A DNA stretch of 52,500 nucleotides from an uncultured Pelagibacteraceae bacterium. Lineage in GTDB: Bacteria > Pseudomonadota > Alphaproteobacteria > Pelagibacterales > Pelagibacteraceae. Within the stretch, counting starts at the first letter, position 1. The number at the start of each line of letters is the position of its first letter. Shown here piece after piece: positions 13,915 through 52,500 of the stretch. The position numbers and the translations under genes are program-made. The notes under the pieces are model-generated. The model saw only the letters and a list, made by a program, of their open reading frames with translations, searched no databases and was not told the origin of the DNA. The stretch is taken from the NCBI GenBank assembly GCA_902587515.1, contig CACILM010000004.1, positions 1 to 52,500 of the forward strand, written 5' to 3'.

Positions 13915-15228
13915 TTATTTTGTCCCTGGTATCAAATTTAATATTTCATTTATAGACATTAATTTTTTGTCCGACTCCTTTGATCGTCCATTTCTTAAAA
14001 TTTCTCCTGCCACTTTTACCATTGCTGGATAGGATGCACGAAGCATATGATTGGCATATATAACAACATTAAAGCCATTTTGAGCTAATTGTTTTTCTGT
14101 TACATGATTATAGCTCGACGGTACACCAATGAGAGGTATATTTTTAAAAAGTTTTCTAAATTGTCTAGAGAAACTAAATACTTCGTTAGGTTTTTTTGAC
14201 TTACTATGTATCATTATGCCATCTGCTCCAGCCTCAACATATTTTTTTGCTCTTCTCATTGCATCTTTAACATCTTTATTTAATATAAAACTTTCTATTC
14301 TAGCTATAATCATAAAATCATCGCTGCTTTGTGCTTTTTTTCCAATGGATATCTTTTCTGCAAAAATATCAGCATTTTCCTGAGTTTGATTAGATGTATT
14401 TTTATGTAAAGAATTTTTTTTTAACCCGGTTTTATCCTCAATAATTACCGCAGAAATTCCTAATCTTTCTATACTGCGAATCTTCATATCAAAATGTTCT
14501 TTTTTTCCTCCTGTATCTCCATCAAAGATTAAAGGTTTTGAGGTTACATCAAAAATATTATTTATTCCATTTAGCCTGAGCGTGTTATCTACATATTCAT
14601 TATCTGGTTTACCCATTGATGTAGAGTCAGTTAAGGAACTAGACCAGAATCCATCAAAAGTTAAATTTTTACCTTTTTTGGTAATTGAAATATTTTCACC
14701 AATCAAAGCTGAAATAGGGCTGTGGGCCTCAATAAATCGTGAAATTTTTTTTATTTCTAATAATCTTCTTAACATTCCGCGTCTAGAGTCTGGTGTTACT
14801 AAACTTAAATTATGGAATTTTGTTAAAGCATCAGAAGAAATTCCTTTTGTGTAAGGTATTTCAATTAGTTTTCCTCCATACTTTTTTAATGCTTTTAAAG
14901 CGTTTACTCTTAAACTTTTTTCTTTACCATATTTCCAATCATCTCCATGGATCATATAATCAGGTTTTAATTTTGAAATATTTTTCGAATAATCATATTC
15001 ATTTTGAGGTACAACTTTTGATACTCCTCTAAGGTTAGATAATATTTTTTTTCTTTGATTAAAATTTAAATAAGGTATTCTTTTATATTCAGCTATAGCA
15101 CTATCGGTGATTAAACCAATAATAATTTCTCCATACTTCCTTCCAACTTCAATTAAATTCATATGTCCATGATGAATGCTATCAGCAGCTAAAGCAATAT
15201 AGACAGATTTTTTATTATTCTTTTTCAT
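13915..15228 (-). CDS. pepM: Cytidylyltransferase-phosphoenolpyruvate mutase fusion
   Basis: This 437-aa two-domain protein starts phosphonate biosynthesis. Residues 1-135 form a nucleotidyltransferase domain with HHGH at 19-22 (HxGH motif), GDDWKYG and YTKGISSDAL (the RT-GIST-type motif). Residues 150-437 are a PEP mutase of the isocitrate lyase superfamily, with the diagnostic EDKTGLKKNS (EDKxxxxxNS) at about 264-273 and FDGDTGG and ADGIMIHSKSK around the active site. PEP mutase converts PEP to phosphonopyruvate, and the cytidylyltransferase domain probably activates the final aminophosphonate with CTP. Decarboxylase and aminotransferase genes lie at 16.5-18.7 kb. This gene is transcribed leftwards alone, divergent from a second cytidylyltransferase. 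Confidence 0.93.
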   Translation of the reverse strand: MKKNNKKSVYIALAADSIHHGHMNLIEVGRKYGEIIIGLITDSAIAEYKRIPYLNFNQRKKILSNLRGVSKVVPQNEYDYSKNISKLKPDYMIHGDDWKYGKEKSLRVNALKALKKYGGKLIEIPYTKGISSDALTKFHNLSLVTPDSRRGMLRRLLEIKKISRFIEAHSPISALIGENISITKKGKNLTFDGFWSSSLTDSTSMGKPDNEYVDNTLRLNGINNIFDVTSKPLIFDGDTGGKKEHFDMKIRSIERLGISAVIIEDKTGLKKNSLHKNTSNQTQENADIFAEKISIGKKAQSSDDFMIIARIESFILNKDVKDAMRRAKKYVEAGADGIMIHSKSKKPNEVFSFSRQFRKLFKNIPLIGVPSSYNHVTEKQLAQNGFNVVIYANHMLRASYPAMVKVAGEILRNGRSKESDKKLMSINEILNLIPGTK

Positions 15229-15392
15229 TTTTAAGTTTACCTTATTTTAGATTTTTTTAAGATGAAAATTCATAAAAATTGACTTAAATACTTTATATAA
15301 CATGAATATAATTATAATCTTTTAAAATCAATAAAATGTTACGAAAATAGCTAAAACAATGTATAAAATGTATTTTTTAAAATTAATTATTT

Positions 15393-15791
15393 ATGAAAAA
15401 AGCAAAAAAAGTATTTGTGGATTTATCAGCTACCATTTTACATCATGGGCACATACGACTACTTAAAAAAGCAAAAAAATTTGGAAAAGTTTTTGTAGGT
15501 TTAAGTTTAGATAAAGAGGTAAAGAAATATAAAGGATATGTACCCGAACTAAGTTACAACCAAAGAAAAGAGATAATTTCCTCAATCAAATATGTTGATA
15601 AAGTAATTCCAACAAAATGGAAAATAACTAACAAATTTTTATTAATTCATAATTTTAATATGATTATTAGAGGAAGTGATCATAAAAAGGATAAGTTTAA
15701 AATTAAAACAATTATATTTCCGAGGACTAAAGGCGTGAGTAGTAAAATTATTAGGAAAAAGGCTTCTAAAATAGTAAAAAAAGTTTACTGA
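15393..15791 (+). CDS. Free-standing cytidylyltransferase-like protein (TagD/PntC type)
   Basis: This 132-aa protein has HHGH near residue 18, LSYNQRKEII, IRGSDHKKDK and RTKGVSSKII, the motif set of small cytidylyltransferases such as glycerol-3-phosphate cytidylyltransferase. It aligns by eye with the N-terminal domain of the PEP mutase fusion next door (same VGL(S/I)-D, YNQRKEI and TKG-SS blocks), so the two are paralogues. It is the only rightward gene in this block: divergent from pepM over 164 bp and convergent with the dioxygenase 12 bp away. It may activate a second phospho- or phosphono-alcohol. The substrate cannot be read from the sequence. Confidence 0.75.
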   Translation: MKKAKKVFVDLSATILHHGHIRLLKKAKKFGKVFVGLSLDKEVKKYKGYVPELSYNQRKEIISSIKYVDKVIPTKWKITNKFLLIHNFNMIIRGSDHKKDKFKIKTIIFPRTKGVSSKIIRKKASKIVKKVY

Positions 15792-15802
15792 TGGAATTTT
15801 AA

Positions 15803-16555
15803 TTATATTAAATATTTATAAGTTCTGCCTTTTACTCTCTCATTATTAGGTGGAAAGCTTATTCTTTTATTTTTGAAATATTCTTTTCTTAAATTACCAT
15901 CTTTTTTTGCATTATAGGTTAAATACATCATTCTTCTGGGTTTGTTTGTTAAATTTTTTTTTGATCTATGCGGCGTGTAAGCACCAAAAATTATAAGATC
16001 GCCAGGTTTAGTTGGAATTTTTTCCCATTTAAGTTTTTTTACGATACTTTTTGGTATCGCAGATTTATTGTCACCTAATAATCCCATTTTATGTTTTTTC
16101 CTTACAATTTCTAGACATCCATTTTTGATTGTTGTTTTGTCTATTGAGATAGTTAAAGAAATGAAACTTTTTATATTTTTGTATAAGTTTTCCCAAACTT
16201 GTGCATCTTGATGGGGTTCAAAGCCGCTAGCGCCTGGATATTTCCAATTTATTTTGTCTTTAAATAAAGATGGTTTAGAACCAATTAAATTGGTCAAAAG
16301 ATTAATGATCTTTTTTTTTGTTAAAAAATTTCTAATTTTAAAATTATGATCATAAAAGTTTTCCGTTCGAGTAAGCAAAAGTTGTTTATTTTGATAATCT
16401 TTATAAATCATATGTTTATTTTTTTTTGGTTTTAACGTTTCTATTTCTTTTACAATCTTTTTTAATAGAATAATCTCCTTCTTAGAAAAGAAATTTGATA
16501 TTTTAATAAAACCGTTTTCATCGTAAGATTTTTTTTGTTTTTTTTTACTATTCAT
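15803..16555 (-). CDS. PhyH-family Fe(II)/2-oxoglutarate dioxygenase (candidate phosphonate hydroxylase)
   Basis: This 250-aa protein of the phytanoyl-CoA dioxygenase family has the iron ligands visible: HQD near residue 115 (H-x-D) and the distal His in YTPHRS near 197, followed by an Arg-rich stretch (NKPRRMMY) for 2-oxoglutarate. It overlaps the aminotransferase gene by eight bases and is last in the ppd-aminotransferase-dioxygenase operon. Dioxygenases of this family (PhnY-type) hydroxylate C1 of 2-aminoethylphosphonate. In a biosynthetic setting the likely product is 1-hydroxy-2-aminoethylphosphonate. The gene context strongly favours a phosphonate substrate, but this remains inference. 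Confidence 0.78.
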   Translation of the reverse strand: MNSKKKQKKSYDENGFIKISNFFSKKEIILLKKIVKEIETLKPKKNKHMIYKDYQNKQLLLTRTENFYDHNFKIRNFLTKKKIINLLTNLIGSKPSLFKDKINWKYPGASGFEPHQDAQVWENLYKNIKSFISLTISIDKTTIKNGCLEIVRKKHKMGLLGDNKSAIPKSIVKKLKWEKIPTKPGDLIIFGAYTPHRSKKNLTNKPRRMMYLTYNAKKDGNLRKEYFKNKRISFPPNNERVKGRTYKYLI

Positions 16556-17534
16556 ATCTTAAATCGTTTAAAATTTTTCCCTTAGCTTTTCTTTTTAAAT
16601 GTGCTTCCCCAAGATGACAGACTACACTTCCAGATACATTAGCTCTTGTTTTATAAAAAATTATTTTTTTATTTCGTGAAGTCAATTTTTTTTTAATGTA
16701 AGTACATAATAATGGCTGATTTTCTTTTGGGTATATTAAGTTTTCTGACATAATCTTAGATATTCGCTTTTTGTTAATTTTGACAGAATATTTAAAATCC
16801 TCATAATTTTGTAAAACATCATGCAAAGATAAAATTGTGTGGTATGGACCTGTCATTTTACTATCTAAATGATTTTGAATATTTAGATAAAAAGAGCTCA
16901 TATTATTTTCTGGTAAATTATTAAAAGCTATAAAACTAGCTCCTGTCAATCCAAAAAGACCTTTGCAAGAACTATAAGCTATTACATCAGCCAAGTGATG
17001 ATCGTTTTCCAAACCTATTGAAGCAGTTGCATCTAAAGCTAATTTAGCTTTAGATTTTCTTTTTAATTTATAAAGTTGATTGATCGGTGTTCTCAAGGCT
17101 ATACTTGTTTCTGTGGGACAACCAAAAATCCAGTCATATTTTTTATCAACTGTATCAATCTTGTTCCATCTTACACTTTCTATTCGTTTAATTTTTTTGA
17201 AATTTTTTTTATAAAAATGAGCCATAAATTTTATCCTGTCTGAGTAAACCCCGGTATCAATAATCAAAATCTTTCCATACAAAAAATTTGAAGTTAGAAT
17301 TTCCAGTGCCAAACTCGCAGAACCCTGCATCCTGGCAATGTGTTTATGGGAAGAAATTTTCTTTAACATGTGTAATACTCTTTTTTCAATTTTAAAGTAA
17401 TCTGCATCTCCCCTACCAAAACATGGTCTAATCTTCTGGATATTTTCAGGCAATAAACTTGCTGGTCCAGGAGTAAGAAGACTTTTAATTTTATTTTGAT
17501 TTAATACAAAGTTTGTAAGATTATTTGTTTTCAT
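16548..17534 (-). CDS. phnW: Class V aminotransferase, probable 2-aminoethylphosphonate aminotransferase
   Basis: This 328-aa PLP enzyme of the class V/PhnW branch has LLTPGPASLLPENI at the N terminus (residues 19-32, compare LLTPGPL-TS), RMQGSASLALE in the PLP phosphate region, the cofactor aspartate in LALDATASIG, and the Schiff-base lysine in SSCKGLFG at about 191. It is slightly shorter than typical PhnW (about 365 aa). It overlaps phosphonopyruvate decarboxylase by four bases, so it very likely aminates phosphonoacetaldehyde to 2-aminoethylphosphonate. No phnX (phosphonatase) is nearby, which argues against degradation. Confidence 0.82.
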   Translation of the reverse strand: MKTNNLTNFVLNQNKIKSLLTPGPASLLPENIQKIRPCFGRGDADYFKIEKRVLHMLKKISSHKHIARMQGSASLALEILTSNFLYGKILIIDTGVYSDRIKFMAHFYKKNFKKIKRIESVRWNKIDTVDKKYDWIFGCPTETSIALRTPINQLYKLKRKSKAKLALDATASIGLENDHHLADVIAYSSCKGLFGLTGASFIAFNNLPENNMSSFYLNIQNHLDSKMTGPYHTILSLHDVLQNYEDFKYSVKINKKRISKIMSENLIYPKENQPLLCTYIKKKLTSRNKKIIFYKTRANVSGSVVCHLGEAHLKRKAKGKILNDLRYE

Positions 17535-18658
17535 TTTTTTGAGACAAATTTCATGAATTTTTGTTTATAGTACAGAGTATTTTGCTTTGGTCTACTTAAA
17601 TTTTTTCGATGTCCTTTTTTACATACTATTTCAATAAAAGTATTTTTTTTGTTTTTAAGTGCGAAATCAATCTTATTTTTTAATTGAAGAGAATTTTTAA
17701 CTCTAAATGAGTTACTATAACCCATGTCTCTAGCCACTTTGTAAAATTCAATATTTTCACTGGGAGGTCTTTGTCCCCCTACAGAGTCATGGGCAAAATT
17801 GTTAAATACAACATGAATAAGATTTTTAATTTTTCCACTATTTGCCAGAGCACCTAAATGCATTAATATTGATCCATCACCATCTAAACAGAATATTTTT
17901 TTACTCTTTTTAAATAAAGCTAGACCAGTCGATATAGAAATAGAGTGCCCCATACCGCCAACACACATAAACGTATTATCGTGAGTTTGGTTAATCTCAT
18001 TTAATTCATAAAGTTCTCTTGATAGCATGCCAGTAGTTGAAATTTTTGGATGGCGATAAGGAATATTTTTATAGACTATCTTAAGTGCTTCTTCTCTGGT
18101 TAGAAGATTTGATGTCAAAAATTTATTAATATATTTAGAGTTTTCAAAAGTATTTTTTTTAATTAGTAAAGCAACTATTTTATTTTTCTGTTTGGCATAT
18201 TTAGTGAGGATCATTATATCTTTTTTAAAATTTGATTTATTGTTTATCACTTTAAATTTGATGTCTAAAAGTTTTAACAATTTAGGAGTTATAAGTCCTT
18301 GGCTTAAATGTTGAGGTTCATCATAAATTTGTTTTTTTTTATTTATTTCTCCTCTCCAACCTATTAATAAAAAAATTGGTACACGAAAAACTTTTTTATC
18401 TGATAAAGATATTAAAGGGTTTATCATATTTCCTATGCCAGAATTTTGAAGATATACTAAAGGTATTTTACCAGTAGCCAGATGATAACCTATTGCTAAT
18501 CCTACCGATGAACCTTCATTGGATGAAAGTATGTGATTTTTTTTTTCTTTTATTTGTAAAGTACTACATAAACTCGAAAACATTGAATCTGGAACACCTG
18601 TAAAAAAATTAATTTTATTTTTTTTTAAAGTAGAAATAAATTTTTTTGGATTAATCAT
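17531..18658 (-). CDS. ppd: Phosphonopyruvate decarboxylase
   Basis: This 375-aa TPP enzyme has FFTGVPDSMFSSLC at the N terminus, SSNEGSSVGLAIGYHLATGK (cofactor Glu), YLQNSGIGNMINPL and IGWRGE...DEPQH, all diagnostic of phosphonopyruvate decarboxylase. The TPP pyrophosphate motif GDGSILMHLG...NN lies at about residues 258-285. Decarboxylation to phosphonoacetaldehyde makes the otherwise unfavourable PEP mutase step irreversible. It is first of three overlapping phosphonate genes and lies 20 bp below a glycosyltransferase gene, so it could also be the tail of the long polysaccharide operon. Confidence 0.93.
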   Translation of the reverse strand: MINPKKFISTLKKNKINFFTGVPDSMFSSLCSTLQIKEKKNHILSSNEGSSVGLAIGYHLATGKIPLVYLQNSGIGNMINPLISLSDKKVFRVPIFLLIGWRGEINKKKQIYDEPQHLSQGLITPKLLKLLDIKFKVINNKSNFKKDIMILTKYAKQKNKIVALLIKKNTFENSKYINKFLTSNLLTREEALKIVYKNIPYRHPKISTTGMLSRELYELNEINQTHDNTFMCVGGMGHSISISTGLALFKKSKKIFCLDGDGSILMHLGALANSGKIKNLIHVVFNNFAHDSVGGQRPPSENIEFYKVARDMGYSNSFRVKNSLQLKNKIDFALKNKKNTFIEIVCKKGHRKNLSRPKQNTLYYKQKFMKFVSKK

Positions 18659-34611: not shown

Positions 34612-35379
34612 TCAAAGTTTTTGTATTGTTCTAAATCTTTCTCTCTCATGGGTTGGTGGTTGAGAGTTAAAATGTAAAAGTTTTTTTATTTTTTTCTTCA
34701 ATTTTTTGTTTTTCATCATTTTGGGGAAGTTAAAATATGGTTTCATAAACCATGGACCATAATAATTAAACATGCTCCATCTATCTAATTTTGAAGGTTT
34801 GCCAGCCTTATGCCAAATTCCAGTGTCTAAAATAGCTATTGTTCCAGCTTTCCCAGTAATAGCTTTTGATCTATATTTTTTATTTATTGCTGGCGGCCTA
34901 TCCTTTCTATTTAAGCTTTCGGGAATGTATAAAGTAGCTGAATTATCATTAGAAAAGTCATTAAACATTGAGATCGTTAAAAAGCTATAACCTTTATCAA
35001 ATCTTTTATTATTATTGTACCTTGAGTCAGTATGCCATTGTTCACCCAAATTTTTTTTTTTAGAATCTTTAAATTTGTGATTAATTTTTCTATTAATAAC
35101 AGTCGAATCAATTAAGACATAATTTGGATCTAATAAGACACTAAAAATTTTTTCTAGTCTTTTATCGTCTATAAGATTAATTAATGATAAATCATGTCTA
35201 AAAGGGTTAGCGATAACTTGACATTTTGAGTCTACATATTTTTGTAACGTCTTCTTATTTACAATTTTTTCTAATTTATTTATGACGTTTTTACATTCTT
35301 TCTTTTTATAAAAACCTTCTATGTAAGTAATACCTTTTACTTGTAATTCAGAAATATGTTTTTTAAGATTTAATTTCAT
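34612..35379 (-). CDS. PhyH-family Fe(II)/2-oxoglutarate dioxygenase, copy A
   Basis: This 255-aa phytanoyl-CoA dioxygenase-like protein has iron ligands in QWHTDSR (H-x-D, about residues 114-117) and in TGIWHKAGKP (distal His, about 189), followed by DRWSMFNYYGPWFMKPYFNFP. It is a clear paralogue of the protein encoded at 43147-43935, sharing KHI-L--GITY at the start, WH-DSR and the whole GPWFMKPY-N-P block. Enzymes of this type hydroxylate a C-H bond of a small or glycan-bound substrate. It follows PseI by 37 bp in the nonulosonate operon. Confidence 0.82.
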   Translation of the reverse strand: MKLNLKKHISELQVKGITYIEGFYKKKECKNVINKLEKIVNKKTLQKYVDSKCQVIANPFRHDLSLINLIDDKRLEKIFSVLLDPNYVLIDSTVINRKINHKFKDSKKKNLGEQWHTDSRYNNNKRFDKGYSFLTISMFNDFSNDNSATLYIPESLNRKDRPPAINKKYRSKAITGKAGTIAILDTGIWHKAGKPSKLDRWSMFNYYGPWFMKPYFNFPKMMKNKKLKKKIKKLLHFNSQPPTHERERFRTIQKL

Positions 35380-43146: not shown

Positions 43147-43935
43147 TTATCCTCTTAAAGTATAGATGCTCTCAAGTTCACTATCTGGTGGAACAGAATT
43201 ACAGTGAAGAATTTTCTTTAAATTTTTGCTTATTGAATTTTTATATCTTTTTTGGATCATCGCTGGATAATTGTAATAAGGTTTCATAAACCACGGACCA
43301 TAATATGAGAATATACTCCATCTAGTCTTTTTATCACTTGGTTCACCAGCTTTATGCCAAAGGCCAGTGTCAATAATAGCTACTGTACCTTGATCGCCTA
43401 AGATTTTTTTATGTTTATAATTTTTGTTTCTCTCAGGAAATTTGTCTCTGATTAAATGTGATTTTTCAACATACTGTGTACACCCATTATCTTTCTCAAA
43501 CTTATCTAACATAATCATTACAATAAAACTAAATCCACGATCCAGTCTTCTATTGCCGATTAGCCTTGAGTCATGGTGCCAATCACCTCCTAAATCTTCT
43601 AAATGTAATGATTTTTTATCATATTTATTATTTCTTTTAAATCGATTGGTTAAACTTGAATTTATGAGTACATAATTATCATCTATAACTTTCTTTAAAA
43701 TATTATCTACTTTTTTAAGTTCAAGTAATTTAAGGTAATTTTTGTTATAGAAAAAATAATTTTGTATTACCTGACCTCTATTTCCAAGTTTTTTATATTT
43801 ACTTTCGAAAACTTTAAAAGTTTTTTCAAATTCTTTTATATAAGAATTACACTCTTTTTTGGACAAAACATTTTTTAAATAGGTAATCCCGTTATTTTTT
43901 AAATCTTTAATATGTTTTTGAGTTGAATTTTTCAT
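43147..43935 (-). CDS. PhyH-family Fe(II)/2-oxoglutarate dioxygenase, copy B
   Basis: This 262-aa paralogue of the 34612-35379 dioxygenase has the iron ligands in DWHHDSR (about residue 121) and TGLWHKAGEP (about 194), with WSIFSYYGPWFMKPYYNYP nearly identical to the other copy. It ends the eleven-gene leftward operon that carries LuxC, LuxE, ACP and the split transketolase. Similarity to the nonulosonate-operon copy suggests that both act on related glycan substrates, one in each operon. It starts 4 bp after the ACP gene. Confidence 0.82.
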   Translation of the reverse strand: MKNSTQKHIKDLKNNGITYLKNVLSKKECNSYIKEFEKTFKVFESKYKKLGNRGQVIQNYFFYNKNYLKLLELKKVDNILKKVIDDNYVLINSSLTNRFKRNNKYDKKSLHLEDLGGDWHHDSRLIGNRRLDRGFSFIVMIMLDKFEKDNGCTQYVEKSHLIRDKFPERNKNYKHKKILGDQGTVAIIDTGLWHKAGEPSDKKTRWSIFSYYGPWFMKPYYNYPAMIQKRYKNSISKNLKKILHCNSVPPDSELESIYTLRG

Positions 43936-43939
43936 GTAT

Positions 43940-44176
43940 TTAAAAATCTACTTTATATTTTGATAATATCTCTTTTCCTTTTTCAAAAGAACTAAAATCT
44001 ACAACATCTTCTGTATCAATGGAAATTGAAAATTTTTCCTCTAAAGCTGAAATTAATGTCATATGACCAATTGAATCCCATTCTGGTATTTCATTATATT
44101 TAATTTTTTCACTAAACTTGGCATCATCAATTGATAAAGCTTCTTTAAAAACTTTTTTATATTTTTCTAAATTCAT
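43940..44176 (-). CDS. Acyl carrier protein
   Basis: This 78-aa four-helix carrier protein has its phosphopantetheine serine in EWDSIGHMTLI near residue 35, and the acidic helix SISIDTEDVVDF follows. It is specific to this cluster; housekeeping acpP is normally next to fab genes. It would carry the acyl group activated by the AMP-ligase or LuxE gene and processed by the FabZ-like and LuxC genes of the same operon. It lies 1 bp after the transketolase C subunit and 4 bp before the dioxygenase. Confidence 0.92.
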   Translation of the reverse strand: MNLEKYKKVFKEALSIDDAKFSEKIKYNEIPEWDSIGHMTLISALEEKFSISIDTEDVVDFSSFEKGKEILSKYKVDF

Positions 44177-44177
44177 A

Positions 44178-45146
44178 TTATTTAAAATTTTTTGTAACCG
44201 TTTCTATAATTTTGTCAGCAGTTAGTCCATAATATTTTAATAAATAATCATAACTTCCACTCTTGCTATATTGATCATTGACACCGATTTTTATTAATTT
44301 TGGTGATGAACTTATACTAGCTAAAACCTCTGAGACTGCACTACCTAACCCGCCTAAAACATTATGCTCTTCAACAGTAATAATTAATTTTTTTGATTTT
44401 GCTTCTTCCAAAATTATATCTCTATCAATTGGTTTAATTGTATGGAAATTAATTACAGATGTATCTATTTTTTTTTGTTTTAACATTTCAGCAGCTTTTA
44501 AAGCCTGGCTTACAGATGCTCCACTTGAAAAAATTGCAACATTATTTCCATCAACTAATTTAACAGCCTTACCAATTTTAAATTGGTAATCTTTTTTATA
44601 TACTGGAGTTGAGTTAGCTCCTCCTGTCAATCTAATGTAAACACTTTCTTTATGATTAATTGAAGCTAATAAACTCTTTACAACTTCTAATCCATCAGCA
44701 GGAGAAATTATCGTTATATTTGGAATTGATCTTAAAACACCAATGTCTTCAATTGAGCAGTGAGTATATCCTAAAGATCCAAGAATCAAACCACTGGCAA
44801 GTCCAGTCATTATCACTTTGGTTTTCATATATCCTAGATTAACTTTTATTTGTTCACAACATCTCATTGTTTGGAAGGGTGCAAATGTAGTTGTGATGAC
44901 TTTAAAGCCTTCTGAAGAGAGCCCAGAAGCTATTCCAATAAGATTTTGTTCTGAAATACCAAGTTCTATAAATTTATCAGGAACTTGTTTTCTAAATCTA
45001 TCTAAACCAGCTGAAGTAGAGACGTCACAAGTTAGCACACATAAATTTTTAATATGTTTTTCAATCTCTAGAACCGATAATCCAAAAGTGGCTCTTGAAC
45101 CAAGCTTCGACCACATTTCAATTTTTTTGGTATTTATTTCAATCAT
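44178..45146 (-). CDS. Transketolase-like protein, C-terminal subunit
   Basis: This protein of about 322 aa contains the pyrimidine-binding and C-terminal domains of transketolase: DRFRKQVPDKFIELGISEQN (catalytic Glu in the ELGISEQN motif), TTFAPFQTMRCCEQIK, GYTHCSIEDIGVLRSIP and the C-terminal TVEEHNVLGGLGSAVSEVL. It would form a heteromer with the N-terminal subunit encoded just upstream. I prefer ATG at 45146 (overlap ATGATTGA with that gene); in-frame starts at 45161 and 45170 are possible. Split transketolases in glycan clusters usually make branched or extended sugars or transfer two-carbon units. Substrate unknown. Confidence 0.88.
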   Translation of the reverse strand: MIEINTKKIEMWSKLGSRATFGLSVLEIEKHIKNLCVLTCDVSTSAGLDRFRKQVPDKFIELGISEQNLIGIASGLSSEGFKVITTTFAPFQTMRCCEQIKVNLGYMKTKVIMTGLASGLILGSLGYTHCSIEDIGVLRSIPNITIISPADGLEVVKSLLASINHKESVYIRLTGGANSTPVYKKDYQFKIGKAVKLVDGNNVAIFSSGASVSQALKAAEMLKQKKIDTSVINFHTIKPIDRDIILEEAKSKKLIITVEEHNVLGGLGSAVSEVLASISSSPKLIKIGVNDQYSKSGSYDYLLKYYGLTADKIIETVTKNFK

Positions 45147-45966
45147 TTGTTTTAAGCTCATCAATTGCACTTCTGTAATTTTTTTCAGTCATAATTTTGT
45201 GATGCCAATCATTATTATTTTCTGAAAAAGTGAAACCTTTTCCTTTAATAGTTTTACAAATTACAACGTTTGGAGAATTGTTGTCTTTTTCTTTTAATTC
45301 CTTATAGATTTGATTTATATCATGTCCATCTATAGTGACAGTCTTCCATCCAAAACTTTTCCACTTTGACTCAATGTTATCTGTATTCATAATTTGTTTT
45401 GTGGATCCTGTTTGTTGAAAATTGTTATTATCAATAATTACAGTTAAGTTATTTAATTTTAGATTTGGAGCACATAATGCAGTTTCCCAAACTATACCTT
45501 CATTACATTCTCCATCTCCTATAAGCGCAAAAACCCTTTTATCTATATTCTTCTTTTTTAAAGCAACTGCCACTCCAGCTGCTAATGATAAACCCATACC
45601 TAGGCTACCGGTTGAAAAATCAATACCAAAATTATCATTTTTGACTGGGTGTCCAGGTAAATCAGAATTATCCTTTTCAAAAGTTTTTAGTTGCTCATCG
45701 GAAATAATACCTAATAAATTTAAAACTGCGTAATAAACCATACACCCATGTCCTTTGCTTAAAATAAATCGATCTCTTTCATTTTGTTGGAAATTTTCTT
45801 TATTAAAACTCATTATATCATTAAATAAAGTAGCTATAATTTCCACAGAAGATAAGGCTCCTCCAAAATGTGAACTACTCGATCCAGCGTAATACGATAA
45901 ATCTAAAATTTTTCTCCTTAATTTTTTAGAAAATTCTTTTGTATTATTAAATTTTTTATCTGTCAT
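45139..45966 (-). CDS. Transketolase-like protein, N-terminal (TPP pyrophosphate) subunit
   Basis: This 275-aa N-terminal transketolase half has DRFILSKGHGCMVYYAVL, FSTGSLGMGLSLAAGVAVA and the TPP/Mg2+ motif GDGECNEGIVWE...IIDNNNFQQTG (about residues 152-187). The start chosen is ATG at 45966, one base after the SDR stop; an earlier in-frame ATG at 46008 would overlap the SDR by 41 bases. Paired with the C-terminal half downstream, it forms a second, specialised transketolase beside the housekeeping enzyme at 445-2427. The context suggests ketol transfer to an aldehyde, possibly one made by LuxC; that is inference. Confidence 0.9.
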   Translation of the reverse strand: MTDKKFNNTKEFSKKLRRKILDLSYYAGSSSSHFGGALSSVEIIATLFNDIMSFNKENFQQNERDRFILSKGHGCMVYYAVLNLLGIISDEQLKTFEKDNSDLPGHPVKNDNFGIDFSTGSLGMGLSLAAGVAVALKKKNIDKRVFALIGDGECNEGIVWETALCAPNLKLNNLTVIIDNNNFQQTGSTKQIMNTDNIESKWKSFGWKTVTIDGHDINQIYKELKEKDNNSPNVVICKTIKGKGFTFSENNNDWHHKIMTEKNYRSAIDELKTND

Positions 45967-45967
45967 T

Positions 45968-46711
45968 CTACATTCCGCCATCTGCCCTGATAACTTGGCC
46001 AGTAACATAGCTTGAGAGATCTGATGCTAAAAATAAAACCACATTAGCTATCTCTTGAGGTTCGCCAATTCTTTTAAGAGAGGTTAATTGCTCGATATTG
46101 GTTATCGTTTTTTTGTCTGTATTTTTCGTCATCATTTCAGTATTTGTTAAACCTGGAGCGATTGAATTGACTCTAATATTAAAGTGTCCAACTTCACGTG
46201 AAAGAACTTTTGATTGAGCAATTAAAGCTGCTTTAGCAGTAAGATAGGCACTTCTCCCCTCGTTTCCATCTATAGCCGAACTTGAAGATAAATGTATTAT
46301 GCTTCCTGATTTATTTTTTATCATAGATTTTAAAATCAACTGGGTAAAAAGAGATTGAGAAAAAAAATCTATTTCAAAAATTTCTTTTAGTTTGCTTAAA
46401 GGAGTCATTTGAAATAGAGCTGTATGAATTGAAGCAGCATTATTTACCAGAATATGAATAGGTATATTTTTTGAAATGATTTCTTGCGCTGCAGTTTTCA
46501 AATTTGTTTCATTACTTAAATCTAATTTGATTATATAAATTTTATTATTATATCTTTTTTGTAAATCACTAGTAAATTTAACAAAATCATCACTTGTGTT
46601 TCTTACACATGCAAAAATGTTTGCTTGATTTGCAGAGAAAACTTCAAGAACTTTTTTTCCAATTCCTTTATTGCATCCTGTTATGACAGCATTTTTGTTT
46701 TTCAGCAGCAT
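45968..46711 (-). CDS. Short-chain dehydrogenase/reductase (FabG-like)
   Basis: This 247-aa classical SDR has the cofactor motif VITGCNKGIGKKVL (TGxxxGIG, residues 8-21), LVNNAASIH (NNA), the catalytic Ser in IHLSSSSAIDG, the Y-x3-K in SAYLTAKAALI (about 154-164) and the C-terminal SSYVTGQVIRADGG. Such enzymes reduce 3-keto groups on ACP/CoA thioesters or oxidise sugar or alcohol groups. The cluster ACP and FabZ-like dehydratase make acyl reduction likely, but a ketone formed by the transketolase is an alternative substrate. It starts where the radical SAM gene ends. Confidence 0.9.
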   Translation of the reverse strand: MLLKNKNAVITGCNKGIGKKVLEVFSANQANIFACVRNTSDDFVKFTSDLQKRYNNKIYIIKLDLSNETNLKTAAQEIISKNIPIHILVNNAASIHTALFQMTPLSKLKEIFEIDFFSQSLFTQLILKSMIKNKSGSIIHLSSSSAIDGNEGRSAYLTAKAALIAQSKVLSREVGHFNIRVNSIAPGLTNTEMMTKNTDKKTITNIEQLTSLKRIGEPQEIANVVLFLASDLSSYVTGQVIRADGGM

Positions 46712-47773
46712 CTATTTGACAAAATCTTCTTCTGAAAATATATCTTTAGCTAGAGCCGGTTTAAAAATTGATTGACCGCTTTTAGTCATAAATTTTTCTA
46801 TAAAGGATTTATCTTCTCCTGCTAAACATAAGTCACTATGATTTTTGAAATATTTTATACTAAACCCATAGTCTACTATTTCCTTAAGTGATTGCTCAAA
46901 AATATTTCCAATTTTTATGTGGACATACGGGCAAACAAGAACATCGCCGATAGGGGTGACGTAAAGTCTATTAACAGTGGTGCAACCAAGTATCTTCTCG
47001 TTGTTCTTGTCAAAAGGATTCCAAATATTTCTTACTAGGTTTTTATATTCTTTTCTGATTTTTCTCAGGTATTCTCTGTCTTCATCATTACAAATAATAT
47101 CTGACATTTTCTGCCACATCCCAGACGGAACAGCTACGTTTAGTAATGTTTTATATTTTTTATCTTTTGAGTAATCTAATAGTTGTTTAAAGTGATCGGT
47201 GTTAGCATTGTAACGTCCTACCGTAATGTTTAGGTAAGGATCCATCCCCGCTTTTCTAACATGTTCGAGTCCTTCAATAGCACGTCTCCAAGAGTCTTTT
47301 CTACCTCTGATCTCATCGTGAATTTTTTCATCCATACTATCTATACTTACGGAAACTCTGCTTACTTTATATTCTGCAAGTTTTTTTGCCATTTTTTCAT
47401 CGAGATAATAGCCGTTTGTTGTCAGATAAAGGTAAAATCTTTCAGGTTTTATCGCCTCTAGCACACTAAACAATTTATCAGGTTGTAATAATAATTCTCC
47501 ACCTTGAAGATCAAATTCAAAATATCCTAATTCATCAGCATCATCTGCAAGTTTTTTTATTGCTTTTAAATCTAAATATTCTTTAACGTGATCGCCTTTT
47601 GGTGAGTTAGTAAAACAATATTTACATCTTAAATTACATGCGTTATTAAAATTTAAATCGATCCCTCTAGTTTTTGTTCCCACTTTTCCATCATTTTTTT
47701 GAACGTAGGCATAAAAATCTCTTAATTTTTTTACTAGTATAGGTTTGTTTAAAAGTGAAGAAGCTATTGGCAC
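46712..47773 (-). CDS. Radical SAM/SPASM-domain protein
   Basis: This 353-aa protein has the radical SAM cluster motif CNLRCKYC (Cys46, 50, 53: CxxxCxxC) in an N-terminal barrel with FDLQGGELLLQ and YLTTNGYYLD. A C-terminal SPASM/twitch-like region (GCTTVNRLYVTPIGDVLVCP near residues 263-282, then KIGNIFEQSL) has Cys residues for an auxiliary Fe-S cluster. It uses SAM to make a radical for an unknown reaction on a peptide, sugar or carrier-bound group. It lies mid-operon, sharing one base with the FabZ-like gene and abutting the SDR gene. Its codons look less AT-rich than its neighbours'. Confidence 0.88.
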   Translation of the reverse strand: MPIASSLLNKPILVKKLRDFYAYVQKNDGKVGTKTRGIDLNFNNACNLRCKYCFTNSPKGDHVKEYLDLKAIKKLADDADELGYFEFDLQGGELLLQPDKLFSVLEAIKPERFYLYLTTNGYYLDEKMAKKLAEYKVSRVSVSIDSMDEKIHDEIRGRKDSWRRAIEGLEHVRKAGMDPYLNITVGRYNANTDHFKQLLDYSKDKKYKTLLNVAVPSGMWQKMSDIICNDEDREYLRKIRKEYKNLVRNIWNPFDKNNEKILGCTTVNRLYVTPIGDVLVCPYVHIKIGNIFEQSLKEIVDYGFSIKYFKNHSDLCLAGEDKSFIEKFMTKSGQSIFKPALAKDIFSEEDFVK

Positions 47774-48249
47774 TATGTTTCCTTTTTAGTATTTAAATTA
47801 TACTTTTTAATTTCATCTGGCAAGATTAAGTTGAACTCAGCTTTACAAACTAATTCATTATCAATAACTATGCTGCCTTCGCAATTGGCCATACCTCTTT
47901 TAAAATTTAAAATTTTTGATACAATATTTAATCTTTTATTGGGTAATATCTTTTTCAAAAATTTTATATTATTAGCTGAGGTTAAATAAACAACTTTTCC
48001 TTTATTACCTGGTAAAGTAAGAATAGATAGCGCGCAAGTTTGGACTATTGTTTCCACTTGAAGCATACCTGGCATATTAGGGTCGTTAGGCCAATGTACT
48101 TTAAAAAACCATTCATCATTTTTTAAATCCTTATAACCTTTTGAGCTTACACCTGGAATAACTTCAGTGGCATAATCAATAAAAAGGTATGGGTTTCTAT
48201 TTTGTTGGTATTCTAATATTTCTTTCAAGTTAAGGGAAATCTTTTTCAT
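47773..48249 (-). CDS. FabZ-like hot-dog dehydratase
   Basis: This 158-aa hot-dog protein has the region typical of 3-hydroxyacyl-ACP dehydratases: the catalytic His in HWPNDPNMPGMLQVETIVQ (compare H-FPG-P--PGVL--E; here residues about 53-71), preceded by NPYLFIDYATEV and followed by VVYLTSANNIKFLKKI-PN. It probably dehydrates a 3-hydroxyacyl chain on the operon's ACP, or binds one without turnover. It overlaps luxC by four bases. Housekeeping fabZ normally lies with lpxD/lpxA, so this is a cluster-specific copy. Confidence 0.85.
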   Translation of the reverse strand: MKKISLNLKEILEYQQNRNPYLFIDYATEVIPGVSSKGYKDLKNDEWFFKVHWPNDPNMPGMLQVETIVQTCALSILTLPGNKGKVVYLTSANNIKFLKKILPNKRLNIVSKILNFKRGMANCEGSIVIDNELVCKAEFNLILPDEIKKYNLNTKKET

Positions 48250-49439
48250 TTTATTTCGACAACCCTCGTTAATAAATTATTTATATCAAATCCATCCCAA
48301 TTTAAACTTATATCTAACGCTTGTCCTATTGGAACAATTCTATCAATACCTTCTATATCATTTTTAAAAATGGAAGATAAAAAATTTTTTTTTACTCCAA
48401 AGTAAGTGAGTGTTTGATATTTTTTTCCAATAAAATTTTGTAGATTTTTAAAATTTCTAGTTTCATATTCATAAAAATATCCCCACTTACCTTTAAAATT
48501 TTCTATACTTTTGTCAATTTTATTCAAAAAAATTGTATATATATAATTTCCATACCTTTCGTGATTTTTTATATTTTTTAATTTGGCTGTATCAACGCAA
48601 AATTGATTAAATTTATCATAAGATGCTTTATCAGGAATTATATAATTTTTTTTCAGTAAATTATTGAGTTCTACCCAAAATTTTTTTCTAGAGACTTTAA
48701 CAGAATTCCCTGTCCATATTATAAGATGTGGAGATGAACAAGCATTCTGATCAAATAAATATGTATCATTATAGAAATTTTTTACTAATAATTTTAGATC
48801 AAATTTTTTTAATTTTTTTATCCTGTCAGAATTTATAATACAGAATGAGTTTCGATCTGCAAAAGTGATCTCGAAAGATCTATCTTGCAAAGGGAATTGT
48901 CTTATAGCTTGTATCGATTTACTACCTCCCCAAATAATTCTTATATCGCATACTTTTGATAAATACTTTGTTAAATTATCATTTTCTTTATATTTTAAAA
49001 TTTTAATTAGCTTCCTTATTTTATGAAATTTTTTTATTTTTAATAATTTTTTTATTACATTACAAATAATTGAAATTTGAATAAAATCTTTTGATGGCAC
49101 TTTAATAACATTAGAATTTCCGGTAATTAACCCAAATATAAGAGAATATGCAAAATTAGTTGGGACATTTGATGGAGTAATATGAAAAATTAAACCCTTA
49201 CCTTTTTTTACATTATCGTATTTAAATGAAAGCTTAAGCTTTTCAATATTTTTTTTTCTACACCAAAATGATAATGATTTTAAATCGGGATATTTATTAT
49301 ATTTCTTCTTGCTTAATTCTGATGAAAAGCTATTTAAAAATTCACAAATTATTAAATCATAAGGGAATAAAGTATTATTATATATTTGTTTGTCTCCAAC
49401 TAAAAACTCTACATTATCCCATTTATCTTTAAACATCAC
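48246..49439 (-). CDS. LuxC-like acyl-CoA/acyl-protein reductase
   Basis: This 397-aa protein matches the LuxC family: GLIFHITPSNVPTNFAYSLIFGLITGNSNVIKVPSK-type middle (about residues 85-115), IRIIWGGSKSIQAIRQFPLQ, SFEITFADRNSFCII and the catalytic-cysteine region DQNACSSPHLIIW (about 227-239). LuxC uses NADPH to reduce an acyl group handed over by LuxE to the aldehyde. No luxA/luxB luciferase genes are present, so light production is not implied. It overlaps luxE by 11 bases and the FabZ-like gene by four. Confidence 0.9.
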   Translation of the reverse strand: MMFKDKWDNVEFLVGDKQIYNNTLFPYDLIICEFLNSFSSELSKKKYNKYPDLKSLSFWCRKKNIEKLKLSFKYDNVKKGKGLIFHITPSNVPTNFAYSLIFGLITGNSNVIKVPSKDFIQISIICNVIKKLLKIKKFHKIRKLIKILKYKENDNLTKYLSKVCDIRIIWGGSKSIQAIRQFPLQDRSFEITFADRNSFCIINSDRIKKLKKFDLKLLVKNFYNDTYLFDQNACSSPHLIIWTGNSVKVSRKKFWVELNNLLKKNYIIPDKASYDKFNQFCVDTAKLKNIKNHERYGNYIYTIFLNKIDKSIENFKGKWGYFYEYETRNFKNLQNFIGKKYQTLTYFGVKKNFLSSIFKNDIEGIDRIVPIGQALDISLNWDGFDINNLLTRVVEIK

Positions 49440-50454
49440 TACATCCTCTCACCTCGGACTCTTTAACCCTTCCATAAATTTTGAAATGTTTTTGAGATTT
49501 GCCACTACTACAATTTTTACAATCAATAATTTCTCCTATATCTTCAGTTAAAATACTGTGTCCAGGATAACTTGAAGGAAGTAAAGACAAAATTTGAACA
49601 AACCCTTTTTCACCATTTGAACATAAATTGAAATTTTTATCTCTTATCAAAATTTCTGAAAAATCTGTTGTTGTAAAACAACCACACTCTTTTGTCTCCA
49701 TGAAGATAGAGCCAGTTTGTTCGATAAGACCGTAATAATTATATACCATGTTTAAATTTAATTTTGTTTTCAAAATTTTTTTAAATTTTTCATTTGATAT
49801 TTTTTTATCCTGCATTTTCTTCCACCCACCTCCATGAATTAGTATACCGTTGTTTAAATTTTTAATTGAAAGATTATCAATTTTTAATTTTTCAATTAAA
49901 TTCTCAAATACATTAAAAGTGAAACCAAAAATTAAAAATGGCGAATGTGAAAATTTTTTTAAAAATATATTTAATTTTTCATAATTTATTTTGTGATTTT
50001 CATTCATAAAAATTAAATTATTTCCAAATATCGAAAAACCGAGATATGCCGCTGTTTTTGCATTAAAGTTATAAGGGTTTTTAATATTTTCTTTTTCATC
50101 AATTATTATCATCGGTAACCTTTTAGGCCCTAAAATTTTTGAAACAATTTTAGCTAAAGTTAAAGATTGTAATTGAGCATTTTTTTTATCAAGAAAAATT
50201 TTTGATGGGCTTGAGCTAGATGTTCCAGATGATCTTAAAACTTTAAAAATATCTTTTTTTGAAATGCTTTTCAGTTCCAAATGTTTAAAAACATTAACTG
50301 GCAAAAAGGGAACTTCTTCAATTTTTGAAGCTAAAAATTTTTTTGAATAAACATTATTAATAATTTTTTTATACTCTAATGAATTATCGTAATGATGTTT
50401 AGATAACTTATTAATTTTTGATAAAAATGTTTTTGAGTCCTTTAGGTTAAACAT
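49429..50454 (-). CDS. LuxE/PaaK-like acyl-protein synthetase
   Basis: This 341-aa protein of the LuxE family has the adenylation P-loop-like motif LRSSGTSSSSPSKIFLD (about residues 69-85), LLIHGGGWKK-type middle (ILIHGGGWKKM), VYNYYGLIEQTG and the C-terminal EDIGEIIDCKNC with a Cys pair (DCKNC), then FKIYGRVKESEVRGCS. LuxE activates a fatty acid as acyl-AMP, loads it on its own cysteine and passes it to LuxC. It overlaps the AMP-ligase gene by eight bases, so two adenylating enzymes occur side by side. Confidence 0.88.
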   Translation of the reverse strand: MFNLKDSKTFLSKINKLSKHHYDNSLEYKKIINNVYSKKFLASKIEEVPFLPVNVFKHLELKSISKKDIFKVLRSSGTSSSSPSKIFLDKKNAQLQSLTLAKIVSKILGPKRLPMIIIDEKENIKNPYNFNAKTAAYLGFSIFGNNLIFMNENHKINYEKLNIFLKKFSHSPFLIFGFTFNVFENLIEKLKIDNLSIKNLNNGILIHGGGWKKMQDKKISNEKFKKILKTKLNLNMVYNYYGLIEQTGSIFMETKECGCFTTTDFSEILIRDKNFNLCSNGEKGFVQILSLLPSSYPGHSILTEDIGEIIDCKNCSSGKSQKHFKIYGRVKESEVRGCSDV

Positions 50455-51826
50455 AATTTTTAAAAGTTTTTTGTTTTGAAGAAATAGAAATAAAGTTTTT
50501 ATTTAAGAAATATTTTTTGGATATTTTATTGATAATATCATTTGCTGTAAGTTTGTTTTCATCCAATTCTAGTGTTAATTTTTCATCTATAATTTTGCAT
50601 TTGATTTTTTGCCCTTCGCTAATAATAAAGTTTTCAATTTCATCTAAATCAAACCTCTTGCCAAATATTTTGGCAATCCTTTTGGTTCTTCCTGATAAAT
50701 AAACAAAATTATCATCATCTTTGAAACCTAAATCTCCAGTAAATAAAACTTTTTTATTTACATCTCCTTTTTTTAAATCATTCAAATCTTTTGCATAACC
50801 AAGTGAAACGTTTTTACCAAATAGTACTAATTCCCCTTTTGTGAAAGGTTTCTTTAATTCTTTCTTGTTTTTGAATATTTTAATTTCATATCCTGGTAAT
50901 GGTTTACCTATACTTTTTTTCTTTTTAAAAAAAAAATTCCATTTTAAACATGAAATTCTTGGAGATGCCTCTGTTTGTCCATACATAACAAAAAATTTAA
51001 TTTGTTTTTGTTGAGAAGTTTTTCCAATATACTCTAGTGTACTATCTCTTAATTTGCCTCCAGCCTGGGTTAGGTATTTTATATGTTTAGTAATATAGTT
51101 TTTAAAATCAATTTTTTTTAAAATGTCATAAAATTCTGGTACACCGCCAAACGAATTTACTTTGAATTTTTTTACTTTTTGCCAAAAAATTTTTTCAAAA
51201 ACTGTATTATTATTTAAAATAATTTTTGCACCAGTTTTTAAGTGAGTATTTAAAATTGAAAGTCCGTATGAATATCCTGCTGGCATGGTAGTAATAGTAG
51301 TCTGGTTTTTTTTTATCTTTAAACTTTTAATTATTTTATCAGTATTATCCAGAATATTATTTTTTGATAATCTCACGAATTTTGGGCTTTGTGTTGTCCC
51401 CGATGTAGATAACAAAAGGTAATTTATGTAATTTAATTTTTTAACATTTTTTTGTTTAATTTTTAAGATTTCATAATTATTTAATTTTTCTCTATTAACG
51501 ATATTTAAATTTTTTATTTTGAGTTTGCCTGGACAAATAATATAATCAGGTTGATAGATACGTGTTAAGTCAGTTATATAATCTAAAGAGAATGATTTAT
51601 CCAATAATAGTGTAATAATTTTTGATTTATTCATGGAAGCGATATAACTTGCAACAAAATCAAGGCAATTATCAGCAATAATTATTACAATTGAGTTTGT
51701 TTTTAAAAGTTTTGATATTCTTTTAATTTTGTTATGTAACTCTAGTTGAGTTATCTCATTATTATTCTCATCAATCAAAACTACATTTTTTTTTGACCTT
51801 CCGACTTTAAAAAGATTATTTGTCAT
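50447..51826 (-). CDS. AMP-dependent acid ligase (ANL superfamily)
   Basis: This 459-aa adenylating enzyme has the core motifs LLLSTSGTTQSPKFVRLS (A3, about residues 137-154), TMPAGYSYGLS, MYGQTEASPR (A5, about 281-290), FTGDLGFKDDDNFVYLSGR (A7/A8) and a short C-terminal lobe. It activates a carboxylic acid as acyl-AMP and transfers it to CoA or to the pantetheine of the operon's ACP. The C-terminal lobe is small; a conserved A10 lysine may be one of those in SISSKQKTFKN. It overlaps the AAC(3)-like gene by four bases and luxE by eight. Confidence 0.88.
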   Translation of the reverse strand: MTNNLFKVGRSKKNVVLIDENNNEITQLELHNKIKRISKLLKTNSIVIIIADNCLDFVASYIASMNKSKIITLLLDKSFSLDYITDLTRIYQPDYIICPGKLKIKNLNIVNREKLNNYEILKIKQKNVKKLNYINYLLLSTSGTTQSPKFVRLSKNNILDNTDKIIKSLKIKKNQTTITTMPAGYSYGLSILNTHLKTGAKIILNNNTVFEKIFWQKVKKFKVNSFGGVPEFYDILKKIDFKNYITKHIKYLTQAGGKLRDSTLEYIGKTSQQKQIKFFVMYGQTEASPRISCLKWNFFFKKKKSIGKPLPGYEIKIFKNKKELKKPFTKGELVLFGKNVSLGYAKDLNDLKKGDVNKKVLFTGDLGFKDDDNFVYLSGRTKRIAKIFGKRFDLDEIENFIISEGQKIKCKIIDEKLTLELDENKLTANDIINKISKKYFLNKNFISISSKQKTFKNYV

Positions 51827-52500
51827 ACTTTCTCCGGTATTATTCTTCCTTCATTATTTTTAAGATCTTTGACCATTAAACCATAGGCTTTTGCAATATC
51901 AACAATACTAAATATTAAAGACTGAAACTTAATGGTTTTAATTGCTTTATTTTTTTTGAGAATATTATCAAATTTTTTTGTAATGATTGTTGATTTTGCT
52001 TTGTTAGTTTTTCGACAGTACATAGTAAAAACTTTCTTAATCTTTTTTTTCTTTGAGTTTATATAAATGCCTGAAAATTTTTTTTGATATCTATAATTTA
52101 CTTGTGCTGTCTCTTCAGCAACATGCACGAGCGTAAAAGCCTTTTTATAATCTAAGTCAATAAACAATTGTTTACCTTTATTATTTATTAGATATCCAAA
52201 CGGAGAGTCTAGACCAAAGCAGCTTCTATGTTTAAGTAAGGATATCTTTTTCTTATCTTTTCCAAATATAGAAAAAGAATATATCGGATTTAAAGACCTT
52301 ATGAATTCATCTTTTTGTAATGTTAAATTACTTAATGCTCCAGCCAGAGATTTTGTTTTGTTATAATCAAATCTTTTCAAATTACAAAATTGCCAGTTAA
52401 AAGTAGGAAAAAATAAATTTCCTTTTTCACTGACTATTTTTTTTAAAATTTGAATAATTTCATCAGGTTTTAGTTTATTTTTTTTGTTATGAATAATTCT
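51823..52500 (-). CDS. AAC(3)-family N-acetyltransferase, C-terminal part (cut by window edge)
   Basis: The frame is open from the right edge of the window to the stop at 51823, about 225 residues. FFPTFNWQFC (from 52415 leftwards), KTKSLAGAL, PIYSFSIFG, CFGLDSPFGYL and TLVHVAEETAQVNYRYQK match the aminoglycoside 3-N-acetyltransferase (YokD) fold. The apparent start at 52380 is only an internal TTG; the homology continues upstream of it. Members in surface-polysaccharide clusters probably acylate amino sugars rather than antibiotics. It is the first gene seen of the LuxC/LuxE operon, although the real operon start lies outside the window. Confidence 0.82.
   Translation of the reverse strand, partial: RIIHNKKNKLKPDEIIQILKKIVSEKGNLFFPTFNWQFCNLKRFDYNKTKSLAGALSNLTLQKDEFIRSLNPIYSFSIFGKDKKKISLLKHRSCFGLDSPFGYLINNKGKQLFIDLDYKKAFTLVHVAEETAQVNYRYQKKFSGIYINSKKKKIKKVFTMYCRKTNKAKSTIITKKFDNILKKNKAIKTIKFQSLIFSIVDIAKAYGLMVKDLKNNEGRIIPEKV

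Follow-up and report, generated by a model that had tools for sequence, protein, structure and literature searches.

What do eleven tightly packed genes at the edge of a SAR11 surface-glycan region make, and do they belong together at all? The question arises from a 52,500-nucleotide stretch of DNA from an uncultured Pelagibacteraceae bacterium (contig CACILM010000004.1, positions 1 to 52,500; the whole stretch is called the window here), at the right end of which eleven open reading frames (ORFs) lie in tandem on the minus strand. The widest gap between them is 4 bp, between the genes of the PhyH-type dioxygenase and the acyl carrier protein (ACP), and most adjacent pairs overlap. The original prediction of eleven leftward, tightly spaced genes of named families is borne out by the ORF coordinates and the Pfam matches. 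We find that nine of the genes, those for the AMP-ligase, LuxE, LuxC, FabZ, the radical SAM protein (rSAM), the SDR reductase, the two chains of a split transketolase (TK-N and TK-C) and ACP, are a real cassette. As to the product, we propose, giving it slightly less than an even chance, that the nine-gene core builds an unusual small acyl group on its dedicated ACP and that a nearby acyltransferase attaches this group to the surface glycan, on an amino sugar. The eleven genes are as follows.

51823..52500, minus strand: AAC(3)/Antibiotic_NAT-type acyltransferase, optional (Pfam 4.9e-26); runs past the right window edge, with its start outside the window
50447..51826, minus strand: AMP-forming ligase, probable acyl-ACP synthetase, core (Pfam AMP-binding 6.7e-32)
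49429..50454, minus strand: LuxE-type acyl-protein synthetase, core (Pfam PF04443 2.1e-45; PDB LuxE 7xc6_E 3e-11)
48246..49439, minus strand: LuxC-type acyl reductase, the predicted aldehyde maker, core (Pfam 2.9e-26)
47773..48249, minus strand: FabZ-like hot-dog dehydratase, core (Pfam FabA/FabZ 8.7e-19)
46712..47773, minus strand: radical SAM protein whose C-terminal cysteines form a twitch-like set, core in SAR11 (Radical_SAM 4.6e-31, SPASM 3.1e-6)
45968..46711, minus strand: FabG-like SDR reductase, core (Pfam 5.8e-51)
45139..45966, minus strand: TK-N, binding thiamine diphosphate (ThDP), core (Transketolase_N 7.8e-46); the ATG at 45966 is a more likely start than that at 46008, the family lengths being 269-285 aa
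44178..45170, minus strand: TK-C, core (Transketolase_C 1.4e-27, Transket_pyr 4.6e-26)
43940..44176, minus strand: ACP, core (PP-binding 20.1 bits, under the Pfam cutoff of 20.8)
43147..43935, minus strand: PhyH-type dioxygenase, local accessory outside the core (Pfam 3.4e-14)

A nine-gene cassette in SAR11

Using peptide patterns of the rSAM, we fetched 50 rSAM-anchored loci, 26 of them 20 kb or longer and 24 shorter; all 50 rSAM relatives from the genome collection belong to Pelagibacteraceae, Pelagibacterales or Candidatus Pelagibacter. A search for co-occurrence in the same order, as proposed with the original prediction, finds the nine core genes complete in all 26 of the loci holding at least 20 kb and, with intervening genes allowed, in the order AMP-ligase, LuxE, LuxC, FabZ, rSAM, SDR, TK-N, TK-C, ACP in 22 of them; one of the four off-order loci (L057) deviates solely through a broken TK-N. 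Six of the 24 shorter loci hold the complete set; the 18 incomplete loci each have a cassette extending to within 250 bases of a locus end. The nine genes stay together also where the set is split, rearranged or inverted (L023, L042, L050, L060). The possibility, raised together with the prediction, that the genes are not co-conserved elsewhere thus does not hold for the core. The claim that all eleven form one unit stands only for these nine: AAC(3) is present in 8 of the 26 loci, and PhyH above 80 bits in none of them (there is one weak 45-bit match) and in one of the 24 shorter loci (L014).

It is noted that the above loci were selected by the rSAM itself, so that a count anchored on LuxE is the fairer test. 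Among 150 relatives, LuxE is found in 9 and the rSAM in 8, all 8 being LuxE-positive, while at E up to 1e-50 no rSAM is found in the 141 LuxE-negative relatives (Fisher 1.7e-12, which is no true probability because the genomes are related). Of the eight LuxE-anchored loci besides the window's genome (L087-L094), six have the full set on a single contig, with the AMP-ligase of one of the six (L089) lying apart, on the opposite strand and at the contig end. In the genome G086 the transketolase, SDR and ACP are on a separate contig (L106) and LuxE is broken. The ninth LuxE-positive relative, G078, has a GMC oxidoreductase instead of the rSAM; this genome is 58% complete and the slot itself is occupied. 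Chance assembly in a variable island is ruled out by the 26 of 26 loci together with the two reciprocal counts.

Two single loci are worth recording here. In L094 (8390-10844, from the SAR11 genome G086) LuxE and the AMP-ligase are each in two pieces, which we read as decay or an assembly error, and the rSAM, TK-N and TK-C are retained. The contig of L058 carries two rSAM copies (1246-2301 and 9427-10173), 64% and 90% identical to that of the window, and one SAR11 genome may therefore hold two cassettes.

The earlier suggestion of one pathway in a surface-glycan setting is supported. The window's genome has 1.05 Mb, and the operon sits in its SAR11 hypervariable region HVR2, at the far end of a surface-glycan stretch: from the 5S rRNA gene (13612-13726) rightwards to the window edge there are mostly surface-glycan-like genes, many of them so judged by eye. 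The neighbours at 34-43 kb, namely NeuB, a cytidylyltransferase, an aminotransferase, a hexapeptide acyltransferase, a carbamoyltransferase, a PIG-L deacetylase and one ORF without a Pfam match, make up a nonulosonic-acid-type cluster, and NeuB accompanies the cassette in 20 of the 26 longer rSAM-anchored loci. In this setting the AAC(3)-type enzyme probably transfers an acyl group to an amino sugar. Scans for promoters and terminators gave matches no better than chance.

PhyH-type dioxygenases at 34612-35379 and 43147-43935 bracket the nonulosonic-acid-type cluster, and a PhyH-type ORF like that of the window also lies between ACP and the rSAM in L066 (5000-5767). Beside the 5S gene, at 13915-18658, there is an apparent phosphonate cluster, judged by eye from its ORFs, which are nucleotidyltransferase/phosphoenolpyruvate-mutase-like, PhyH-like, aminotransferase-like and phosphonopyruvate-decarboxylase-like.

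The core outside SAR11 and in published islands

The wider search covered PLSDB and samples of Pseudomonadota, other phyla being reached via plasmid records alone (Deinococcus, L069; Nonomuraea, L071). Of 385 Alphaproteobacteria, 8 have a LuxE relative at E up to 1e-90, and of 398 Pseudomonadota, 14 have one at E < 1e-100. We examined 26 LuxE clusters outside the window's family (L066-L086 and L095-L099, with L085 and L086 being weak LuxE matches); further weak matches (E 1e-68 to 1e-76) are in G541, G550, G570, G578, G654, G669 and G547, of which G547 was fetched (L086). Most of the fetched clusters have ACP, AMP-ligase, LuxE, LuxC, usually SDR, and nothing more of the core, and NeuB adjoins the LuxE cluster in L077, L078 and L080-L084. 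The version that bears the transketolase is found in Rhizobium plasmids (LuxE matches in 10 Rhizobium records, two regions of which were read) and in L074, L075 and L072, and beyond SAR11 the extended set mostly has a GMC oxidoreductase in place of the rSAM. In G396, outside the window's family, the rSAM, FabZ, LuxC, LuxE, AMP-ligase and ACP are on L066 and the SDR, TK-N and TK-C on L105.

The plasmid cluster of the Rhizobium leguminosarum group (L067, L070), a close counterpart, shares TK-N, TK-C, ACP, AMP-ligase, LuxE, LuxC, SDR and FabZ with the SAR11 cassette, but a GMC oxidoreductase and a small protein replace the rSAM, and a hexapeptide acyltransferase replaces AAC(3). To our knowledge, and with no search made under its name, no function has been described for this cluster. 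The hexapeptide acyltransferase lies near the core in L067, has relatives in L069, L070 and L072-L075, and is weakly PglD-like (PglD_N 22.7 bits, cutoff 23.4).

The particular TK-C subtype is found at E < 1e-140 in 4 of the 398 Pseudomonadota, the next scores being only 1e-87, and all four genomes are among the 14 that are LuxE-positive at E < 1e-100 (Fisher 9.7e-7, post hoc; the four supplied rows of the profile, which inflates their scores, and three were first found via LuxE). No LuxE-negative genome of this sample comes near the four scores. Outside the window's family six of the clusters examined carry FabZ, and in five of them (L066, L067, L070, L074 and L075; not L095) it stands with the rSAM or GMC. 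A strict rule that the transketolase accompanies FabZ was also considered and failed on L072 and L095. In L095, a LuxE cluster without the transketolase pair, an acetolactate-synthase-like thiamine pyrophosphate (TPP) enzyme lies between FabZ and NeuB (4734-6518) and is perhaps a substitute carboligase.

A smaller version of the core is already in the literature. The genes of ACP, SDR, AMP-ligase, LuxE and LuxC are described in flagellin-glycosylation islands of Aeromonas and Enterobacteriaceae, where they are treated as fatty-acid-synthesis-like, the passages concerned testing no function (PMC7874193, PMC4875605). The Aeromonas Group II polar-flagellin islands and the enterobacterial islands thus share all five families, within variable islands for flagellin glycosylation, and in Aeromonas pseudaminic acid genes accompany them. 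They differ from the cassette in that transketolase and radical SAM have no mention in the main texts, FabZ being named there in one enterobacterial strain. All 26 of the longer SAR11 loci contain this five-gene core in full. The original prediction that no described pathway has the whole set stands for the full set within the papers searched, but it missed that five of the genes had been published together. Among the matches listed from open-licence PMC papers there is no characterised pathway, of O-antigen, lipid or other kind, that matches gene for gene, and the extension by transketolase, FabZ and oxidase, its conservation in SAR11 and the exchange of rSAM and GMC are likewise absent from them. 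The cassette is a variant of a published but unexplained five-gene core, with an extension new to the papers searched.

The enzymes and a candidate route

LuxE and LuxC together convert an acid to an aldehyde, and transketolase is the sole enzyme type in the cassette known to join an aldehyde with a carbon unit. In the route that we propose, LuxE would activate a small acid and LuxC would reduce it to the aldehyde, to which the split transketolase would append a two-carbon ketol unit; the SDR would reduce and FabZ dehydrate, the rSAM (in other bacteria the GMC flavo-oxidoreductase) would oxidise an alcohol, the AMP-ligase would charge ACP with the free carboxylate, and the acyltransferase (AAC(3) in the window, the hexapeptide type elsewhere) would move the acyl group to the amino sugar. 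The presence of two acid-activating enzymes in one operon suggests that the starting acid is a diacid or hydroxy-diacid, such as malate, succinate or malonate.

The catalytic residues are retained across LuxE, LuxC, FabZ, ACP, SDR, rSAM and transketolase. The C-terminal R-G-C cysteine of LuxE, which we take to be the acyl-accepting residue, is present in all 32 full-length SAR11 copies and in 8 of 8 sequences of an alignment extending to Rhizobium, Ponticoccus and Deinococcus. The same holds for the Q-N-A-C cysteine of LuxC (38/38 copies), the catalytic His and Glu of FabZ (39/39 each), the D-S-I-G-H serine of ACP (47/47 full-length SAR11 copies) and the Tyr and Lys of the SDR (47/47). The best NCBIfam match of the AMP-ligase is ligase_PEP_1 (7.8e-40), well under its cutoff, and its C-terminal SGK (A10) motif is altered in the window copy.

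For the rSAM, the prediction rests on its place in the operon. In SAR11 the gene order is FabZ-[rSAM]-SDR, versus FabZ-[GMC, small protein]-SDR in Rhizobium and L075; the SAR11 genome G078 itself has the GMC version, with a small protein of 117 aa, and GMC occupies the slot in L093, L067 and L075. The small proteins beside GMC have no Pfam match. Of 14 genomes, 9 have the rSAM and 3 the specific GMC (E < 1e-100); no genome has both, and G193 and G682 have neither. The simplest reading of this exchange is that the two would catalyse the same kind of oxidation, and the rSAM is therefore predicted to be an alcohol oxidase. Its radical SAM cysteines (CX3CX2C) together with C264, C281 and C316 are present in 50 of 50 copies and C228 in 18 of 18, giving four invariant cysteines beyond the radical SAM motif. 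BtrN, as described in parts of PMC9012708, is a twitch radical SAM enzyme that oxidises a sugar-like alcohol, and the rSAM likewise has a single C-terminal auxiliary-cluster motif and a predicted alcohol oxidation.

The mean pairwise identity of the rSAM is 86%, versus 38-63% for the other core genes, a comparison biased by the loci having been found through peptide patterns of the rSAM. When the loci are anchored on LuxE, the rSAM still has 64-94% identity, versus about 40-55% for LuxE. The rSAM (46712-47773) is thus far better conserved than LuxE although it lies within a hypervariable region.

The nearest solved relative of the transketolase is that of Carboxydothermus hydrogenoformans, likewise of two chains (TK-N, 6yak, 1.5e-63; TK-C, 6yaj, 4.4e-58). 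We mapped the residues of 46 cassette pairs (those of the window, Rhizobium, L072, L074, L075, L093 and 40 SAR11 loci) on E. coli TktA. All 46 pairs retain H26, H66, H100, D155, H261, R358, S385, E411 and H473, and in all 46 R91, H461, D469 and R520 are substituted, giving the combination E/Q91, A/G461, L/F469 and G/A520 with R358 and S385; the window's housekeeping transketolase (445-2427) retains all four. In a smaller control alignment the R520 column has T, N or A in some cassette members, apparently through a one-column shift, but never R. According to the relevant passages of PMC5073344, D469 and R91 form a salt bridge in the E. coli enzyme, and evolution to the variant S385Y/D469T/R520Q shifted it from phosphorylated aldehydes to non-polar and aromatic ones. 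Both partners of the bridge are absent from the cassette enzymes, and S385 is retained. The Carboxydothermus enzyme differs from them at D469 and R520: its authors state, in the part of PMC7661550 concerned, that R358, S385, D469 and R520 are all unsubstituted in it.

For comparison we took 14 transketolase-like pairs from other settings (L113 was dropped because it repeats L107, and L105 and L106 are cassette members). The exact residue combination of the cassette is in none of the 14. L101, L103 and L110 retain R91, H461, D469 and R520; seven pairs lose two or three of them, H461 being retained in L107, L108, L109, L111 and L112 and R520 in L114 and L115. The remaining pairs are L102 (Q91, N461, L469, G520, plus L358 and T385), L104 (T91, I461, L469, V520, with odd catalytic sites), and L116 and L117 (C91, G461, L or Q469, K520, G385). 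Judged from the aligned residues, the substitutions argue for a changed acceptor specificity of the cassette transketolase, though toward no particular acceptor, because other split transketolases differ at the same sites too. They make it more plausible that the enzyme would act on the aldehyde made by LuxC.

Weighing the proposed route and its rivals

Several observations weigh against the proposed route. The changes in the transketolase are not unique, since D469 is absent in 11 of the 14 control pairs and all four residues in 4 of them, and the retained R358 and S385 could still serve to bind the phosphate of a donor. FabZ requires a beta-hydroxyacyl thioester, which fits only a malonate-like semialdehyde as the acceptor; our guess is that the transketolase acting on such a semialdehyde would lead to the beta-hydroxyacyl-ACP for FabZ. 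The AlphaFold model of the rSAM is weak, with a predicted local distance difference test score of 65; the 50 Foldseek matches listed do not include BtrN and give no functional hint, and BtrN is also missing from the 22 matches that the rSAM sequence has in the PDB at 0.001. L072 (G682) has the transketolase without FabZ or an oxidase nearby, and L095 (G193) has FabZ without transketolase or oxidase, beside its acetolactate-synthase-like TPP enzyme. In 10 loci the pairwise identities correlate poorly between most core genes, so that these do not appear to co-diverge cleanly. Gene content, co-conservation, the retained catalytic residues, the altered acceptor site of the transketolase and the exchange of rSAM and GMC are observed, whereas the substrates, the order of the steps, the product, the oxidation by the rSAM and the transfer to an amino sugar are inferred.

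The transketolase could instead load a two-carbon glycolyl unit from a ketose onto ACP, as in the Qnc and Scl systems, with LuxE and LuxC working on another branch, which we consider unlikely. In the passages on these systems in PMC6335953, QncN/QncL/QncM are reported, and SclQ1-4 proposed, to load glycolyl on ACP; SclQ2, SclQ3 and SclQ1 are of the same three protein kinds (a ThDP chain, a pyrimidine-binding/TK-C chain and an ACP) as TK-N, TK-C and ACP, which are adjacent in the window. This likeness, drawn by description and not by sequence, does not extend to the lipoyl-bearing acyltransferase (SclQ4/QncL), the eleven genes having no lipoyl or 2-oxoacid acyltransferase domain, and LuxC, the aldehyde maker, is present in 26 of 26 loci.

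That the five-gene core suffices by itself has, in our judgement, a similarly small chance: LuxE, LuxC and the SDR would reduce a diacid such as malate to a hydroxy acid (3,4-dihydroxybutanoate, for instance), which would be charged on ACP and then N-acylate a nonulosonic acid, with transketolase, FabZ and oxidase forming a separate branch. The core occurs without transketolase in many glycan islands, and for Aeromonas piscicola AH-3, of the core-carrying group, passages of PMC7874193 give a mass of 376.14 Da for a putative derivative of pseudaminic acid, plus a 102 Da moiety. By our computation, exchanging one acetyl for C4H6O3 leads to 376.148, C4H6O3 being 102.032, the mass expected from a malate-derived dihydroxybutanoate. 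O-methylglyceroyl, however, fits C4H6O3 equally, the same passages leave the moiety unassigned and test no core gene, and the glycan of strain AH-1 differs (403 Da). Moreover, in the SAR11 loci (26/26) the five genes never occur without transketolase, FabZ and rSAM. As for the possibility that the aldehyde from LuxE and LuxC is a fatty one and that the operon serves to lipidate the glycan, the Lux fatty acid reductase does have a known activity, but LuxE (62 of 550 bits) and LuxC (45 of 750 bits) fall well short of the long-chain fatty acid equivalog cutoffs, and by Pfam family assignment neither LuxD nor a ketosynthase is among the eleven genes; we thus take it to be very improbable, although liposugars are proposed for the flagellin islands in passages of PMC4875605 and PMC7874193.

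Returning to the small acyl group built on ACP and transferred to a surface amino sugar, a stronger form of this proposal, which we regard as doubtful, is that the cassette would represent ketosynthase-free acyl building, in which LuxE and LuxC provide the aldehyde, a transketolase with an acceptor site evolved for non-phosphorylated aldehydes lengthens it, dehydration and oxidation take place on ACP, an oxygen-sensitive radical SAM alcohol dehydrogenase does in an aerobic marine bacterium what the flavin enzyme GMC does in its relatives, and the product belongs to a novel class of substituents on surface sugars.

SAR11 ranks with the most abundant bacterial groups on Earth, as stated in the part of PMC7029224 concerned, and HVR2 encodes mainly cell-surface properties (PMC2217521), so that it shapes what viruses and grazers encounter. 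The cassette gives a concrete route, open to testing, to a building block of the surface, undescribed in the papers searched, and links the published but unexplained LuxE/LuxC genes of flagellin islands to a specific candidate chemistry. It also offers a natural transketolase that is changed at sites which engineers mutate to alter the acceptor, and a radical SAM enzyme whose reaction may be guessed from a gene swap.

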